Shown here piece after piece: positions 5,844 to 11,275 of a DNA stretch of 64,000 bases. The translations under genes and the position numbers were made by a program. The notes beneath the pieces were generated by a model. The model was not told the DNA's origin and searched no databases. It saw nothing but the letters and a program-made list of their open reading frames with translations. Origin of the DNA: a virus; IMG/VR virus record IMGVR_UViG_3300009182_000057, positions 1-64,000 of that record. One strand, written 5' to 3'. The stretch's first letter is position 1, and the number at the start of each line of letters is the position of its first letter.

Positions 5844-6809
5844 GTGAGACAATTGCCTGGTAGTTATATTTTAAATAAGTTTTACACCTACTCAGGTGCT
5901 CCTGCTTATAATAAATTTACAAGCACTTACTATGCTTCTTGTCCTATATGTAGAGAAGGCAAAAGCTTTTTAAAGAAAAAAAGACTTTACTATTATCCTA
6001 CGAGTAACACCTTTTATTGTTTTAATTGTAGTAGATCCTGGCATGCTCTGGCTTGGATAGAAGCTGTATCTGGTATGTCTAGGGAGGAGATAGAAGCAGA
6101 AGTATTAAGCGGTAATACTTCTTTTGATATTACAGATAACTTAAAATATAACAATAAGATCAAAAAGAAACCCTTATCATCTTTACCTTTAGATTCTATT
6201 AATATTAGTGATCCGTTACAAAAACAATATTATGGGACTAATGTTTATTTTCAAAAAGCATTAGAATATATTACAGAAAGAAGATTAGATACAGCAGTTA
6301 ATAAAAGTTCATCCTATTATATAAGCCTTACAGATCATTTTCACAAGAACAGACTTTGTGTTCCTTATTATGATAGTGATAAGAAAATAGTATTTTACCA
6401 AACAAGATCTTTAGATGGCACAGAACCTAGATATCTTAATAAAGTTGGATATGACAAAACAGTTTTTGGTATAGATAGAATAGACACATCCTTAGATTAT
6501 TTGTTTTTGTTTGAAGGTCCTATGGATGCAATGTTTGTTAAAAATGGAATATCCGTAGCAGGATTAGTATTAACTGGAGAACAAGAAAAACAATTAGTAG
6601 AATTTCCGTTTTATGAAAAGATATGGGTACTAGACAATCCTCGCTTTGATGAAGCAGCAAAAGAAAATATCTTTAAGCTTATTTCTAATAAACAAAAAGT
6701 CTTTAAATGGCCTATTGATAAACCATATAAAGACTTTAATGAATGGTGTGTTAAAGAAAAGTTAGACGAAATAGATTATAAATTTATTTTACAAAATTTA
6801 TATTCTTAG
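5844..6809 (+). CDS. gp61: DNA primase (T4 gp61/DnaG-like)
   Basis: 321 residues (T4 gp61 has 342). The primase makes RNA primers for lagging-strand synthesis together with the replicative helicase. A zinc-binding motif is formed by Cys33, Cys36, Cys59 and Cys62 (CPIC and CFNC). The catalytic TOPRIM domain is visible as FLFEGPMDAMF near residues 221-231 (the Glu and Asp of the first motif) and VLDNPRFDEA near 262-271. The GTG start at 5844 gives an N-terminus of suitable length before the zinc finger; a TTG nine bases on is an alternative. The stop overlaps the stop of the convergent gene by four bases. No helicase gene (gp41) is in the window. Confidence 0.88.
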   Translation: MRQLPGSYILNKFYTYSGAPAYNKFTSTYYASCPICREGKSFLKKKRLYYYPTSNTFYCFNCSRSWHALAWIEAVSGMSREEIEAEVLSGNTSFDITDNLKYNNKIKKKPLSSLPLDSINISDPLQKQYYGTNVYFQKALEYITERRLDTAVNKSSSYYISLTDHFHKNRLCVPYYDSDKKIVFYQTRSLDGTEPRYLNKVGYDKTVFGIDRIDTSLDYLFLFEGPMDAMFVKNGISVAGLVLTGEQEKQLVEFPFYEKIWVLDNPRFDEAAKENIFKLISNKQKVFKWPIDKPYKDFNEWCVKEKLDEIDYKFILQNLYS

Positions 6810-7468
6810 GAAGTTAATGATTGCTCTGTGTCTCTTAATTTCTTAGGAGCTGTAATAATAAAGGAATTTAATACTTCCTTCAATTTATCTAATTCACCTG
6901 TTGTACGAGTAATATTATCAGAAGACTTACGCATGATACCACGAAGTAAGCTTCCTGCTTTATCATTATCTGATAAAAATTTATGCAATGATTCTATATT
7001 AGGATCATTTAACATAGCTGTAAATTCATCTAATTTGTGAGACCATTTTTCAATCTCTTCTATATTCTTAGTTGCAACCTCAGGTGGTACACCCTGTACC
7101 TCATAAGCATCCTTTGGGGTTTCTGGCTCAAGAGCTTTTTCAAAATCTTTTTTATTAGCTTCCGGAGAAAAATCATCCGGTGACTTTACCTCCGATGAAA
7201 CTTCTTCTTCATCTTTAATTTGTTCTGGCTCTTCGGCTTCAGCAATTAAAGCTCCTAAAAATCTACTAATGAAAGGTATATCAGTATTTTCATTATACCA
7301 AGCATTACACTCACCAACACAATTACCCCCACAATTACACATAGGTCTATAATTGCTATCTAAAATTCTCTTGACTTCTTTTTCAACTTTAGGATTTTTA
7401 GATGGTACGGTGGTCTTTACTCCGTATTTCTTTTTTAATTTAAATTTGACTTTCTTGGTGTTCTTCAT
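6806..7468 (-). CDS. Hypothetical protein with Cys cluster and gp21-type site
   Basis: 220 residues, the only minus-strand gene in this region. The N-terminal 40 residues are very basic (Lys-rich). A compact cysteine cluster follows at about 44-54 (CNCGGNCVGEC), which could bind a metal. At residues 75-78 the sequence IAEA matches the T4 gp21 cleavage rule (cut after Glu77). The remainder is acidic and mostly helical, with a likely coiled-coil C-terminal third. No family is recognised. If the site is cut, a basic Cys-containing peptide of 77 residues and an acidic helical protein would be made in the head; this is inference. The gene converges with the primase gene and has its own ATG about 25 bases from the divergent queC start. 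Confidence 0.7.
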   Translation of the reverse strand: MKNTKKVKFKLKKKYGVKTTVPSKNPKVEKEVKRILDSNYRPMCNCGGNCVGECNAWYNENTDIPFISRFLGALIAEAEEPEQIKDEEEVSSEVKSPDDFSPEANKKDFEKALEPETPKDAYEVQGVPPEVATKNIEEIEKWSHKLDEFTAMLNDPNIESLHKFLSDNDKAGSLLRGIMRKSSDNITRTTGELDKLKEVLNSFIITAPKKLRDTEQSLTS

Positions 7469-7492: not shown

Positions 7493-8209
7493 ATGGATGT
7501 CAAAAAACCTAAATCAATTGTAATTTATAGTGGTGGACTAGATTCTACCTGTTTATTGTATAGAATTAATAAAGAATCAGATACATTAGCCTTAATCTTT
7601 AACTATGGTCAAAGACATTCTATAGAAATAGAAAGAGCCATAGATAATTGTATTAAATTAAATATACCTCACAAGGTATTAGATATATCATTCTTTAAGG
7701 ATATAGCATCTTCATCGGCTTTATTAGATTACAATAAAGAAATTCCCAACATTAAAGATATAGCAGGTCATGCTCAACCACCAACATATGTCCCTAACAG
7801 GAATATGATGTTTTTATCTATTGCCACAGCAGCTGCAGAATCAGCAGGAGCGGACAAGGTTTATTACGGTGCAGCGGAAGTAGACACTCATAGTGGTCAT
7901 TGGGATTGTTCATTAGATTTCTTAAAAAATATTAACCAGACCATTTCTCTTAATAGAGAACACCAGATTAGGATAGTAGCTCCTTATATTACCTTTTCTA
8001 AAGCTGATATTATTAAAGATGGAATAGCAAACGGTGTAGATTTTAAAAATACACATACGTGTTACAAAGGAGAAGAAATATCTTGTGGCACTTGTTCGTC
8101 TTGTGCTTCACGCATTCAAGGGTTTTTAGAAGCTGGATATATTGATCCTAAAGAATATGTAATATCAGATAAAATCCCATGGAAAAATTACAATTGCCAA
8201 GTCCTGTAA
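7493..8209 (+). CDS. queC: 7-cyano-7-deazaguanine synthase (QueC)
   Basis: 238 residues, the usual length of QueC. QueC turns 7-carboxy-7-deazaguanine into preQ0 with ATP and ammonia, via the amide (ADG). The PP-loop ATP-pyrophosphatase motif SGGLDST is at residues 13-19. The zinc site is complete: Cys190, Cys198, Cys201 and Cys204 in the pattern HTCY...CGTCSSC, followed by the family ending GFLEAGYIDP. Residues about 95-105 (PPTYVPNRN) are the expected substrate-pocket motif. In phages, QueC serves replacement of guanine in DNA by 7-deazaguanine derivatives that resist host nucleases. Here it heads a tightly packed gene set with a glycosyltransferase (31-base overlap), a glutamine amidotransferase and a DUF366 protein. 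A role in tRNA queuosine instead of DNA is possible but less likely in this context. Confidence 0.95.
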   Translation: MDVKKPKSIVIYSGGLDSTCLLYRINKESDTLALIFNYGQRHSIEIERAIDNCIKLNIPHKVLDISFFKDIASSSALLDYNKEIPNIKDIAGHAQPPTYVPNRNMMFLSIATAAAESAGADKVYYGAAEVDTHSGHWDCSLDFLKNINQTISLNREHQIRIVAPYITFSKADIIKDGIANGVDFKNTHTCYKGEEISCGTCSSCASRIQGFLEAGYIDPKEYVISDKIPWKNYNCQVL

Positions 8210-8862
8210 ATCATTATCACTTTGTTTGTGCTACACCTCTTTCTCAATATAAATTTGAGAAAAGTCAATTTAATTTATTTTTAGACAAATTTGCTTATAA
8301 AAATTATACAATTGTTTATAGTAACAAAGAAGGTCTTCCAAAGGTTTATAACAAATTTTTTACAGAAGACCATAAAGGCAAAAAAATTATCTTCATACAT
8401 GATGATGTATTAATTGAAGATCTTTTTTGGCAAGAAAAATTAGATATAGCTTTTGAAAAATATGACATAGTAGGATTAGCCGGGTCTAAAAAAATAGACA
8501 GATCTCGTCCTCCTGCTTGGCATTTAATGTCTAATAAAGAAGATATAGTAGGTGAAGTGGCACATGCTTATGAAGGTAAAACATGGACCACGGTTTTCGG
8601 ACCTACAGATTCGAGAGCTCTTGTATTAGATGGTCTTTTTATAGCAGTTGATGTAGATAAAGCATTATCTACCAACACTACATTTGATGAAGATTTTGAT
8701 TTTCATCATTATGACATTTCATTTTGTTTGAGAGCTAATAATAATAAATTAAAAATGGGTGTAGCACCTATTAAAGTAGTTCACTTTGGTTTAGGAGACA
8801 GTATGAATACTCCAGAGTGGAATTCTAGTGCCGCTAGATTCAACTTAAAGTATAATCAATAA
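8179..8862 (+). CDS. StrF-like family 2 glycosyltransferase
   Basis: 227 residues. The sequence fits the short GT-A family typified by the StrF domain (Glyco_tranf_2_5): FIHDDVLI with the metal/nucleotide-sugar acidic motif at His74-Asp75-Asp76, IVGLAGSKK, LVLDGLFIAV near 148-157, FDEDFDFHHYDISF near 169-182 and VVHFGLG near the end. Such enzymes transfer a sugar from a nucleotide sugar. It starts inside the end of queC (31-base overlap) and its stop is directly followed by the ATG of the amidotransferase, so it is translationally linked to both. I infer that the acceptor may be a modified base in phage DNA; this is not shown by the sequence. Alternatives are glycosylation of virion proteins or a host surface polymer. 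No membrane segment is visible. Confidence 0.8.
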   Translation: MEKLQLPSPVNHYHFVCATPLSQYKFEKSQFNLFLDKFAYKNYTIVYSNKEGLPKVYNKFFTEDHKGKKIIFIHDDVLIEDLFWQEKLDIAFEKYDIVGLAGSKKIDRSRPPAWHLMSNKEDIVGEVAHAYEGKTWTTVFGPTDSRALVLDGLFIAVDVDKALSTNTTFDEDFDFHHYDISFCLRANNNKLKMGVAPIKVVHFGLGDSMNTPEWNSSAARFNLKYNQ

Positions 8863-9519
8863 ATGTGTGGAATATATGGAAATTTAGATTACGCAGAATT
8901 TTATCGGCTTTACAAATTAAACCAATCTAGAGGAAGTTATAGCACTGGTTTTTTATTAACAGATATTGATGAATATGAGATAAAGAAAACTTCAGAAGAG
9001 ATATCTTATTATCCTATAGCTCAGAAAAATTATTATCTTGGCCACAACAGAGCACCTACTACTGATGAAAATGGAAAGGGATTAGTAGGATGCCATCCTT
9101 TCTCATATGGCGTTGCTATTGCAGCACATAACGGAATTATTTCTAATACTTTAGAATTAGAAAATGAATATAGAACAAAATTTGATGTAGATAGTCAATG
9201 GATACCTTATCTTTATGATTATTATGTTAAAAGAAATAATAATAAGCTAAGAGCATTTGAATTGACGTTGCTTGAAATAGACGGAACTTACGGTATTTGG
9301 TTATATGATGTAAATGAAAAAGTCACCTTTGTTTCAAGAAGTGATAATACGGTTTATTGGAATGATCAAAAGACTTCTTTTTCTTCTGTTAATGACGAAG
9401 AACATAAAAATTTAATGCCACAAGGAGCTATATATACAAAAGAATTTAATGAAATCTCATTTGTTGATATAAATGAGAATAACAGGTTGAATAAGAGACA
9501 GAAGTATTTTATTATATAA
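8863..9519 (+). CDS. Class II glutamine amidotransferase, stand-alone
   Basis: 218 residues. The N-terminal nucleophile is Cys2 (MCGIYG), exposed when Met is removed. Family motifs follow: RGSYSTGF near 23-30, GHNRAPTTD at 60-68 (Arg63) and AAHNGIISN at 88-95, as in the glutaminase domains of GlmS, PurF and asparagine synthetase. The enzyme frees ammonia from glutamine for a partner. There is no synthetase domain attached, so the partner must be another protein; QueC, two genes upstream, uses ammonia and is the obvious candidate. Known to me: some Campylobacter phages carry this domain fused to QueC (Gat-QueC) and make a 7-amido-7-deazaguanine in DNA. Here the two parts are separate. The gene begins immediately after the stop of the glycosyltransferase, fixing the Met-Cys start. 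Confidence 0.88.
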   Translation: MCGIYGNLDYAEFYRLYKLNQSRGSYSTGFLLTDIDEYEIKKTSEEISYYPIAQKNYYLGHNRAPTTDENGKGLVGCHPFSYGVAIAAHNGIISNTLELENEYRTKFDVDSQWIPYLYDYYVKRNNNKLRAFELTLLEIDGTYGIWLYDVNEKVTFVSRSDNTVYWNDQKTSFSSVNDEEHKNLMPQGAIYTKEFNEISFVDINENNRLNKRQKYFII

Positions 9520-9522
9520 GAC

Positions 9523-10095
9523 ATGAGTTATTTTAAACAAGATTATAATGGTGATTTGATTCACAAGAGATTTGGTTATGAATACTTTAAGAAGGATTAT
9601 GATCCTCTTGGTGTTATTATTGCATTCCGCGGCAACATGGATGTTACAGATAATTTAATTGATCTAGAAGACAAATTAAATAATGATTATATCTATTCAG
9701 AAGATGCTTTAAATTTCTGTTGGGAGATTCCAAATATTTGTCCTATTGGTGCAGTCTTCTTTCAAAGACTCTTTGCACGTTATATTGGAGATGAATTAGC
9801 CAACGGATATTACGGTAAATTTGAAGTTAAAGTAGATGGAGATGATATTATGATCCGTAAACCCGGAGATGAGGAATATGGAAAAGCTAGTGTTAGCATT
9901 ACTAAGGTTATTGATGGTAATGTAGCCATTGGTCATCTAGGCTTGAATATAAAAGCTGGTCCTAAAGCTCCTTCTTTTGCCTTTTCTCTTTTGTTGGATG
10001 ATGCAAATGCTTCTTATCTTACGAATAGAATTAAGGCAATTTTTCAAGAGACTATTAAAGATTGTTTTGTTGCTACTACAAAGGTAATCATTTAA
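9523..10095 (+). CDS. DUF366 family protein
   Basis: 190 residues, the normal length of DUF366 proteins, which are best known from archaea and some bacteria. Matching blocks are VIIAFRGNMDV near 31-41, LIDLEDKLNNDYIYSEDALNF near 45-65, RLFARYIGDELA, and the C-terminal pair KASVSITKV and GHLGLNIK. The biochemical function is not established as far as I know. Its place three bases after the amidotransferase gene and in the queC gene set suggests that it acts on a 7-deazaguanine precursor or the modified base; this is guilt by association. Its stop overlaps the next ATG (TAATG), so it is coupled to the following gene as well. Confidence 0.8.
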   Translation: MSYFKQDYNGDLIHKRFGYEYFKKDYDPLGVIIAFRGNMDVTDNLIDLEDKLNNDYIYSEDALNFCWEIPNICPIGAVFFQRLFARYIGDELANGYYGKFEVKVDGDDIMIRKPGDEEYGKASVSITKVIDGNVAIGHLGLNIKAGPKAPSFAFSLLLDDANASYLTNRIKAIFQETIKDCFVATTKVII

Positions 10096-10496: not shown

Positions 10497-10895
10497 ATGA
10501 CAATTGCTAGACCTCAACAAGAAGATAGAATCCACGGATTAGTTCAAATAGAAAATTACAAAAGTAATTCTTTAGAATTAGATGATTGGACTTTAACCAA
10601 AGTCATGGATGATATCATTATGGTTCAATACATAGACCTTAATGAAGACGGTACAGAAGTAAATCGTAATGGTATTTGGTTGCCTATCAATGCCGTCAAC
10701 CATGTTTGGAGAATCGGTAGAGTAGTCCTCGCTGGTCCTAATTGTAAAACTGTAAAGGAAGGAGATAATGTAGTATTCCCTAATGATAAGGGTATTCAGG
10801 TTTCAAGTATAAATGATCTGAAACACATTGTTTTCTTGAACGAAGCTCGCATCTTTGGTGTTTGCGAACCTAAAAAGAGCAAGAAAACTAAGTGA
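10497..10895 (+). CDS. GroES-like co-chaperonin (gp31 analogue)
   Basis: 132 residues. The layout fits the GroES/Cpn10 beta-barrel: an N-terminal strand (DDIIMVQYIDL), a mobile-loop-like stretch (NEDGTEVNRNGIWLPIN), then WRIGRVVLAGPNCKTVKEGD and NVVFPNDKGIQV, and a final ARIFGVCEP strand. GroES proteins cap the host GroEL ring; T4 gp31 does this so that the large capsid protein gp23 can fold. A phage-coded version fits the gp23-type capsid protein at 17696. T4 gp31 is 111 residues, so this one is somewhat longer, ending in a Lys-rich tail. It overlaps the next gene by GTGA. Confidence 0.78.
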   Translation: MTIARPQQEDRIHGLVQIENYKSNSLELDDWTLTKVMDDIIMVQYIDLNEDGTEVNRNGIWLPINAVNHVWRIGRVVLAGPNCKTVKEGDNVVFPNDKGIQVSSINDLKHIVFLNEARIFGVCEPKKSKKTK

Positions 10896-11275
10896 AGCTT
10901 TCTCTTGGTGGTTTAAAAAGTCTGTTAGAATCAAACGTCGTAGAAATTAAATTTGTACGACGAATGAAAGTAGCAGGTAGACCAGCCACTAGAAGAATGT
11001 TAGCAACACTTGATCGTGGAATATTAGATTCAAAATTAGGAAGAGAAATTTTAAATTTTAAACAACCAACACAGAGTCCAGCTTATAATGCTGTTTCAAA
11101 AGGTCTTTTAACTGTATGGGATATTTTTTTCCAAGATTGGAGAATGGTGCCTGTAACTAATTGTGAAGTAGTGTCAGTTGTACCATCTAAACCACCAGAA
11201 AAATTTTGGGAATATTTTAATAAAACAATAGGAAATATGGATGCAGCTCAGAAAGCAGCATTTATGGACAAATAA
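10892..11275 (+). CDS. Small protein with possible SH3-like fold
   Basis: 127 residues, GTG start overlapping the upstream stop. After a short N-terminal helix (LGGLKSLLE) comes VEIKFVRRMKVAGRPATRRM followed later by LLTVWDIFFQDWRMVP and NCEVVSVVPS, a layout that recalls the small Sm/SH3-like beta-barrel proteins of phages (WYL_2, formerly DUF2693). The resemblance is weak. The N-terminus also contains Leu-Leu-Glu before Ser14, compatible with a prohead protease site, but this could be chance. No function is assigned. Confidence 0.6.
   Translation: MKLSLGGLKSLLESNVVEIKFVRRMKVAGRPATRRMLATLDRGILDSKLGREILNFKQPTQSPAYNAVSKGLLTVWDIFFQDWRMVPVTNCEVVSVVPSKPPEKFWEYFNKTIGNMDAAQKAAFMDK

Follow-up and report, generated by a model that had tools for sequence, protein, structure and literature searches.

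A separate QueC-amidotransferase pair and a DUF366 protein in a probable 7-deazaguanine DNA-modification pathway of uncultured T4-like phages

A stretch of 64,000 bases of viral DNA (the window; bases 1-64000 of the 69,071-base IMG/VR virus record IMGVR_UViG_3300009182_000057) carries a compact block of four genes, encoding a QueC-family enzyme, a glycosyltransferase (GT), a stand-alone class II glutamine amidotransferase (GAT) and a protein of the DUF366 family. We consider it very probable that these genes belong to a pathway by which the phage substitutes a 7-deazaguanine derivative for guanine in its own DNA, presumably in order to resist host restriction, against which such replacement serves phages as a shield. 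Judged from sequence, the pathway looks to be of a known kind, dispersed over the genome and complete in relatives, and DUF366 looks like a new, constant and previously unlinked partner of it.

All four open reading frames (ORFs) that an earlier note on this DNA had listed were located on the plus strand, and each scored above its Pfam cut-off. QueC (7493..8209) matched PF06508 (E 1.9e-57), the GT (8179..8862) matched Glyco_tranf_2_5, PF13712 (E 3.9e-11, 43.5 bits versus a cut-off of 27), the GAT (8863..9519) matched GATase_6, PF13522 (E 3.4e-7, 30.8 bits versus 27), and the DUF366 protein (9523..10095) matched PF04017 (E 5.5e-20, 72.1 bits versus 29.9). The junctions are as tight as the 0 to 3 bases first proposed between GT and GAT (0 bases) and between GAT and DUF366 (3 bases), but QueC and GT overlap by 31 bases. 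The same four-gene block was seen again in divergent contigs. Compared with the relative L009, whose proteins are 70-86% identical to those of the window, nonsynonymous and synonymous divergence (dN and dS) were 0.081 and 1.039 for QueC, 0.233 and 1.298 for GT, 0.178 and 1.311 for GAT, and 0.098 and 1.371 for DUF366, with dS near saturation; all four genes are under purifying selection in this comparison. Thus, the block is not a product of chance, since it recurs in divergent contigs and is maintained by selection. The protein encoded at 17696-19144 matches gp23-type major capsid proteins, and the source is a fragment of an uncultured T4-like phage; identity to cyanophages and marine viruses was only 34-36% among the matches listed, so that no close cultured relative was found.

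The enzyme that would insert the base, DpdA, had been reported as missing from the window, and indeed we observed neither a match to PF01702, the tRNA-guanine transglycosylase (TGT) family, nor a DpdA-like match on the 69-kb contig. A DpdA-like protein was found in relatives, in 10 of 18 records, which represent seven distinct phages (G003/G004, G008/G009 and G013/G014 being near-copies). In G004 and G006, this protein of 286-292 amino acids (aa) is encoded between DNA polymerase and ThyX. It matches phrog_19058, for which no function is given, and two of three proteins scanned also matched TIGR00449, a TGT family, very weakly (E 0.003 and 0.08). The G006 protein shares 35% identity over 98% with gp056 of Campylobacter phage CP220, which we take to be DpdA3 of Cui et al. 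2023, and 39% with a Flavobacterium phage immuto protein that carries the annotation DNA guanine transglycosylase, DpdA. Moreover, alignment of seven DpdA-like rows with gp056 gave an hhalign probability of 100%. Comparison of the profile with the sequences of solved structures returned nothing useful. An AlphaFold2 model (predicted local distance difference test [pLDDT] 88.2) matched the TGT structure 5utj (E 1.1e-8) and the solved DpdA 7ui4 (E 5.4e-5), and a second structural comparison gave 2z1x (Z 17.3) and 7ui4 (Z 17.0), each with a root mean square deviation (rmsd) of 3.0 over 232 aligned residues. Asp55, Asp86, Gln119 and Asp234 were invariant in all seven rows and are ordered like the active-site residues of TGTs, to which they would be equivalent, with the catalytic roles that we assume for those residues.

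A TGT-like fold leaves room for a second explanation, in which all that the genes do is provide more queuosine precursor for host or phage tRNA and the DNA stays unmodified. TGT and DpdA share their fold, which alone cannot separate a DNA target from a tRNA target; the window contig is without a transglycosylase; and a role of this sort was proposed for phages that have the pathway but lack DpdA (PMC6884629, in the passage cited here). We nevertheless regard it as very unlikely, as the transglycosylase of the relatives is homologous to proteins of Campylobacter phages, which are reported to be highly modified by 2'-deoxy-7-amido-7-deazaguanosine (dADG) (PMC6884629), and to an annotated DNA guanine transglycosylase, its gene lies between DNA polymerase and ThyX in the two genomes named above, and PF01702 was matched in none of 20 records. 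By the last result, a tRNA TGT was rejected as a candidate in this phage group. DpdA2 of Vibrio phage nt-1 (phrog_10773) was also rejected as the inserting enzyme, with no match in the 12 records other than nt-1.

Replacement of guanine in DNA would further require the precursor genes, and these were found in relatives. PF06508 QueC is present in 17 of 18 records, comprising nt-1 and 16 of the 17 DUF366-bearing IMG/VR records, the sole miss being G019, a 43.6-kb fragment. Contigs showing DUF366 alone were considered as QueC-less phages, and this was rejected, as QueC was found elsewhere in the records searched, with G019 as the miss. QueD (PF01242) was matched in 9 of 13 records, one of them nt-1. 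A QueE-like radical SAM protein matching phrog_2076 (3.2e-44) has homologs in G004, G006, G013, G015 and G016, as well as in G031, where it is 30% identical to the G004 protein; QueE was present in five of six QueC-positive records tested (all except G001). FolE2 (PF02649, E 2.9e-64) occurs in 11 of 34 records, and FolE in G015, G016 and nt-1. The precursor set of GTP cyclohydrolase, QueD, QueE and QueC is therefore present in relatives such as G004, G006, G013, G016 and G031. The earlier note had pointed to the rest of the genome as the place to look for dpdA, folE, queD and queE: none was found on the window contig, and all four functions exist in relatives. Lack of any DpdA-like enzyme, which the note would have counted against its proposal, is thus not what the relatives show. 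Its proposal of a 7-deazaguanine DNA-modification pathway with split QueC and GAT is thus strengthened by relatives that encode a TGT/DpdA-fold protein, QueD, QueE and FolE2 or FolE. G006 carries a second QueD-like PTPS gene (L097 13267-13815), apart from the first, that scores higher on TIGR03367 than the QueD of G004.

These genes also come and go together. A phyletic profile of 207 G004 ORFs (at least 60 aa, some surely spurious; E 1e-4) was drawn up over the QueC-positive genomes G004, G006 and G031 and the QueC-negative genomes G020 (212 kb) and G022 (203 kb). Eight ORFs were found in both G006 and G031 and in neither G020 nor G022, namely FolE2, QueD, the DpdA-like protein, QueE, QueC, GAT, DUF366 and an 86-aa DksA-type zinc finger, while 73 of the 207 were found in all four other genomes. 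G020 and G022 keep the order dnaB-like, RecA, ThyX, DNA polymerase without the QueD and DpdA genes that sit between these landmarks in G004 and G006. QueE is not found beside its next gene in G022, the G020 piece ends at that point, and no piece of either genome holds QueE. Seven genes are missing at scattered positions while the landmarks are retained, a pattern that points to one function rather than to assembly gaps. In the genomes compared, DUF366 thus tracks six pathway genes that are spread over several loci. The zinc finger, of DksA/TraR type (L110 9516-9776), is the one non-pathway gene that tracks QueC.

Several observations weigh against the pathway as proposed. DpdA, QueD, QueE, FolE and FolE2 are all without a match on the window contig, in G001 (107 kb) and in G002 (112 kb), the last being a third record of the window's subgroup with QueC alone of the precursor genes. 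The 69-kb window contig has no match to DNA polymerase, RecA or ThyX either, and it, G001 and G002 are fragments, since these three markers are missing from them; they do not include the region that holds DpdA, QueD and QueE in G004 and G006, genes that the phage of the window would itself carry on the missing part. QueC is found without a DpdA-like match in G016 (99 kb, with DNA polymerase and RecA present), G017 and G018. G034 (131 kb) has FolE2 and a DUF366 match of 17.2 bits, under the cut-off, without QueC or DpdA. The profile itself rests on five related genomes chosen by hand and does not yield a probability, and by hhalign the DpdA-like protein could not be aligned with the DpdA of Enterobacteria phage 9g or with DpdA2 of nt-1. 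Finally, the window QueC reads HWDC in place of YPDC, the substrate motif of canonical (cluster 1) QueC, whose Tyr131 was shown by mutation to be essential in E. coli QueC (PMC13329287, in the passages cited here); its product may therefore differ. G035 and G036 (56 and 48 kb) show the reverse pattern to the QueC-only records, with DpdA present and no QueC, FolE2 or Pfam-level DUF366, although profiles built from phage sequences found a divergent DUF366 in both; these two and G034 may be fragments. As a separate observation, the window contig and G001, which is practically the same phage, share an end some 7.5 kb upstream of QueC; this points either to a true genome terminus or to assemblies that broke twice at the same point.

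The change in the substrate motif is shared within the group, as WD was observed in all 16 IMG/VR QueC rows and in nt-1, versus PD in CP220, 9g and immuto, and His or Asn takes the place of the Tyr in 10 of the 16 rows. In other respects the window QueC resembles the known enzyme: it scores 176.8 bits on TIGR00364 (cut-off 150.3) and has the SGGxDS, YxQxHxxE and VPxRN motifs as SGGLDS, YGQRHSIE and VPNRN. The earlier description of an intact PP-loop and zinc cysteines holds for the PP-loop and for the presence of four C-terminal cysteines, but their spacing is C(x)7CxxCxxC versus the canonical C(x)8CxxCxxC (PMC13329287, passages as above). In a second subgroup (G013, G015, G016 and G018; QueC at L142 10536-11288, L134 8476-9225, L135 7190-7933 and L136 8246-8992), QueC retains just one zinc cysteine, the first, and reads YWDG. 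The immuto protein annotated as QueC is also without zinc cysteines. On these sequence grounds we file the window protein as a member of the PF06508 QueC family, not as a proven preQ0 synthase.

QueC-family enzymes are also known to conjugate deazaguanine to protein (PMC13329287, in the passages cited here), as Cap9 of type IV CBASS and QatC do, so that the window QueC could serve an immune or counter-immune modification. It showed a local match to Cap9 (9nto, E 9.3e-9, QueC residues 126-207) and a weak match to QatC (E 1.5e-4). Against this stand the full-length QueC match, with TIGR00364 above its cut-off, and the co-variation with FolE2, QueD, QueE and DpdA, and we give protein conjugation hardly any credence, although no search was aimed at CD-NTase or QatA/B/D genes.

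For synthesis of a DNA base, QueC would act with the adjacent GAT, which in the window is a gene of its own and not part of one polypeptide with QueC. Its assignment by the earlier note to the class II amidotransferases with a Cys2 nucleophile agrees with a PF13522 match over the cut-off and with the invariance of Cys2 in all 15 rows, nt-1 ORF392 included. R23-G24, N90-G91 and D110 were invariant in the same rows, and we assume for these residues the catalytic roles they have in GlmS. The window GAT matches phrog_12378 (E 8.4e-8), the family of nt-1 ORF392, whose gene comes directly after QueC with a one-base overlap. The split pair, part of the combination that the earlier note took to be new, therefore also exists in a Vibrio phage, and phages that are only distantly related encode QueC and its amidotransferase as individual proteins. 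In G013, G015, G016 and G018, GAT and QueC are no more than 2 kb apart at a second place in the genome.

Known phage systems share different parts of this set. nt-1, which is KVP40-like, has the overlapping QueC-GAT pair together with FolE and QueD, but uses DpdA2 and has no DUF366; it was credited with an ArcS homolog (PMC6884629, as are the following statements from this source, in the passages cited here). 9g has the same GAT and QueC functions, but as one fused Gat-QueC in place of two proteins and with a DpdA that is not alignable by sequence; the fused enzyme was tied to archaeosine in DNA and, with DpdA, gave 2'-deoxyarchaeosine (dG+) in plasmid DNA (PMC6884629). The phage amidotransferases named there are ArcS, QueF-L (or QueF) and the fused Gat-QueC, a separate GAT not being among them in those passages (PMC6884629). 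Campylobacter phages are reported to be highly modified by dADG (PMC6884629). CP220 (Firehammervirus, dADG-type) shares with the relatives of the window the homologous transglycosylase gp056, QueC, QueD and a GTP cyclohydrolase gene, and differs in having no DUF366 match. The fused Gat-QueC that the earlier note ascribed to Campylobacter phages was not borne out, as the QueC of CP220 is a stand-alone protein of 219 aa and no Campylobacter phage is among the 51 phage records that gave an amidotransferase match. immuto shares the DpdA homolog and has genes annotated QueC, QueD, QueE and FolE, but differs in a gene annotated QueF and in having no DUF366 match.

Taken together, FolE2 (or FolE), QueD and QueE would produce 7-carboxy-7-deazaguanine (CDG), which QueC would adenylate while the adjacent stand-alone GAT supplied ammonia from glutamine. 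The two proteins would then yield 7-amido-7-deazaguanine or a further product (preQ0 or an amidine). QueC may stop at the amide, continue to the amidine or make something else; most likely the product is 7-amido- or amidino-7-deazaguanine. The exchange of this product for guanine in DNA would fall to a DpdA3-type transglycosylase whose gene would lie elsewhere in the genome. DUF366 would probably catalyse adenylation or an acyl-type reaction, acting either on the base or on a precursor of it, and the GT would be a separate function sharing the operon.

The proposal for DUF366 comes from its fold. A model of the protein (pLDDT 90.3) was closest to 2ddz of Pyrococcus horikoshii (Z 20.9), followed by biotin protein ligases (BirA 8fi3, Z 13.4, rmsd 3.2, 157 aligned) and LipB (1w66, Z 11.0); according to this model, DUF366 has a predicted biotin/lipoate-protein-ligase fold. 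The DUF366 profile also matched 2ddz (E 1.3e-6), whereas a single DUF366 sequence searched against the sequences of solved structures gave nothing useful. 2ddz belongs to the same family and has the same fold, but is archaeal and titled a protein of unknown function, while the phage DUF366 is tied to the deazaguanine pathway. Gly-Asp-Asp (106-108) and Lys121 were invariant in all 30 rows. The second Asp is separated from the Lys by 7 residues in 2ddz, the same spacing as that of D104 and K111, residues mutated in P. horikoshii biotin ligase, versus 13 in the window protein; we infer that the Asp and Lys of DUF366 are equivalent to D104 and K111. GRGRxGR, the biotinyl-AMP loop motif of biotin protein ligase, was not seen by eye in the 30-row alignment. 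These features fit an ATP-dependent acyl or carboxylate-activating step, as far as a structural model can indicate. A bolder reading, which we hold to be less likely than not, is a new DNA hypermodification in which DUF366 uses ATP to activate a carboxylate and joins it to 7-amido- or amidino-7-deazaguanine in DNA (or activates CDG), giving an acylated or aminoacylated base to which some phages may add a sugar via the GT. If true, this would give DUF366 its first role and add a new class of enzymes that modify DNA. The link to the pathway in itself makes the function of this family, whose structure (2ddz) is solved but has had no explanation, open to test; the family is found in two methanogens as well, the only 2 of 14 control genomes with PF04017.

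Among 50,697 phage records, DUF366 had one match, MaAM05 (L003, MW495066, record named Microcystis phage). This record has genes annotated secDF, glyS, fabI, fliM and pomA and looks bacterial rather than phage, and because of these surroundings it was set aside. A DUF366 scan of genome contigs gave 29 candidates, none of which was confirmed. Among the open-access papers listed for DUF366, none by its title concerns deazaguanine, and among those listed for PF04017 and its solved structure none has a title on this family, which does not show absence from print.

The GT showed a different distribution. It carries an HDD motif invariant in 13 of 13 rows and belongs to a family that we take to be of the GT-A class. 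A search of the 50,697 phage records found no match at E 1e-3, which also sets the Campylobacter phage system apart. From at least 557 relatives, 80 GT loci were kept. In 28 of the 80 the GT lies less than 150 bases from QueC, GAT or DpdA, seven of these being DpdA-GT-DUF366; in six, DUF366 alone lies within that distance; and 46 have no pathway gene in the available stretch. In 11 records of 75-212 kb, picked for length and for a GT without pathway neighbours, QueC, DpdA, DUF366 and FolE2 were each absent from all 11 when the records were searched whole. A tree of 74 dereplicated GT rows, of which 13 were too short to judge, showed pathway-linked and free forms interleaved, with at least four label changes, on a quick method that left long branches and many weak forks.

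These data bear on the earlier suggestion that a sugar may be added, by which the GT would glycosylate the 7-deazaguanine and create a new glycosylated base. The 28 loci with close pathway neighbours speak for it, above all the seven with DpdA-GT-DUF366, as does the fact that the GT accompanies GAT at two genomic places, with a nucleotide-sugar epimerase (L015) or a GNAT protein (G013) beside the GT in some loci. The 46 loci without a pathway gene, the 11 records devoid of the four pathway genes and the repeated label changes on the tree all speak against it, and we consider it unlikely, if less so than the tRNA and protein explanations. The GT does not track the pathway and is a local neighbour, not an obligate part of it; since it is kept where the pathway is missing, sugar on the base is unsupported as an obligate step, and we do not count the GT among the steps of the core mechanism. 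A route to a GT substrate of the T4 hydroxymethylcytosine type or through a ThyA-like enzyme, which would explain another DNA target, was also rejected: T4 gp42, gp56 and beta-GT and the ThyA of immuto gave no tblastn match at E 1e-3 in nine sets, two of them GT-only phages, in single-sequence queries that could miss a distant homolog.

The arrangement of the block varies among relatives. A DUF366 scan of viral contigs found 445 encoding stretches, of which 80 were kept, and a QueC scan found 9 loci. The order QueC-GT-GAT-DUF366 is that of the near relatives of the window; other loci have QueC-GAT-GT-DUF366 or a nucleotide-sugar epimerase gene between GAT and GT (L015 8296-9309). In the second subgroup, QueC, GAT and GT lie near RecA and DNA polymerase, one or two other genes separate QueC from GAT, and DUF366 remains beside o10497, the gene that follows it in the window and that reads as GroES-like. 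The GAT and GT genes share 4 bases in G015, G016 and G018; in G013 they are separated by a GNAT acetyltransferase gene (L142 7502-7975). L007 has two extra ORFs, one between QueC and GT (7902-8606), which matches a homing-endonuclease family (phrog_314), and one just after DUF366 (10540-11235). Upstream of the block, primase and QueC flank a conserved gene (6806-7468, minus strand) in the window's subgroup; in the pathway-free loci looked at, an ORF at the corresponding position comes before the GT.

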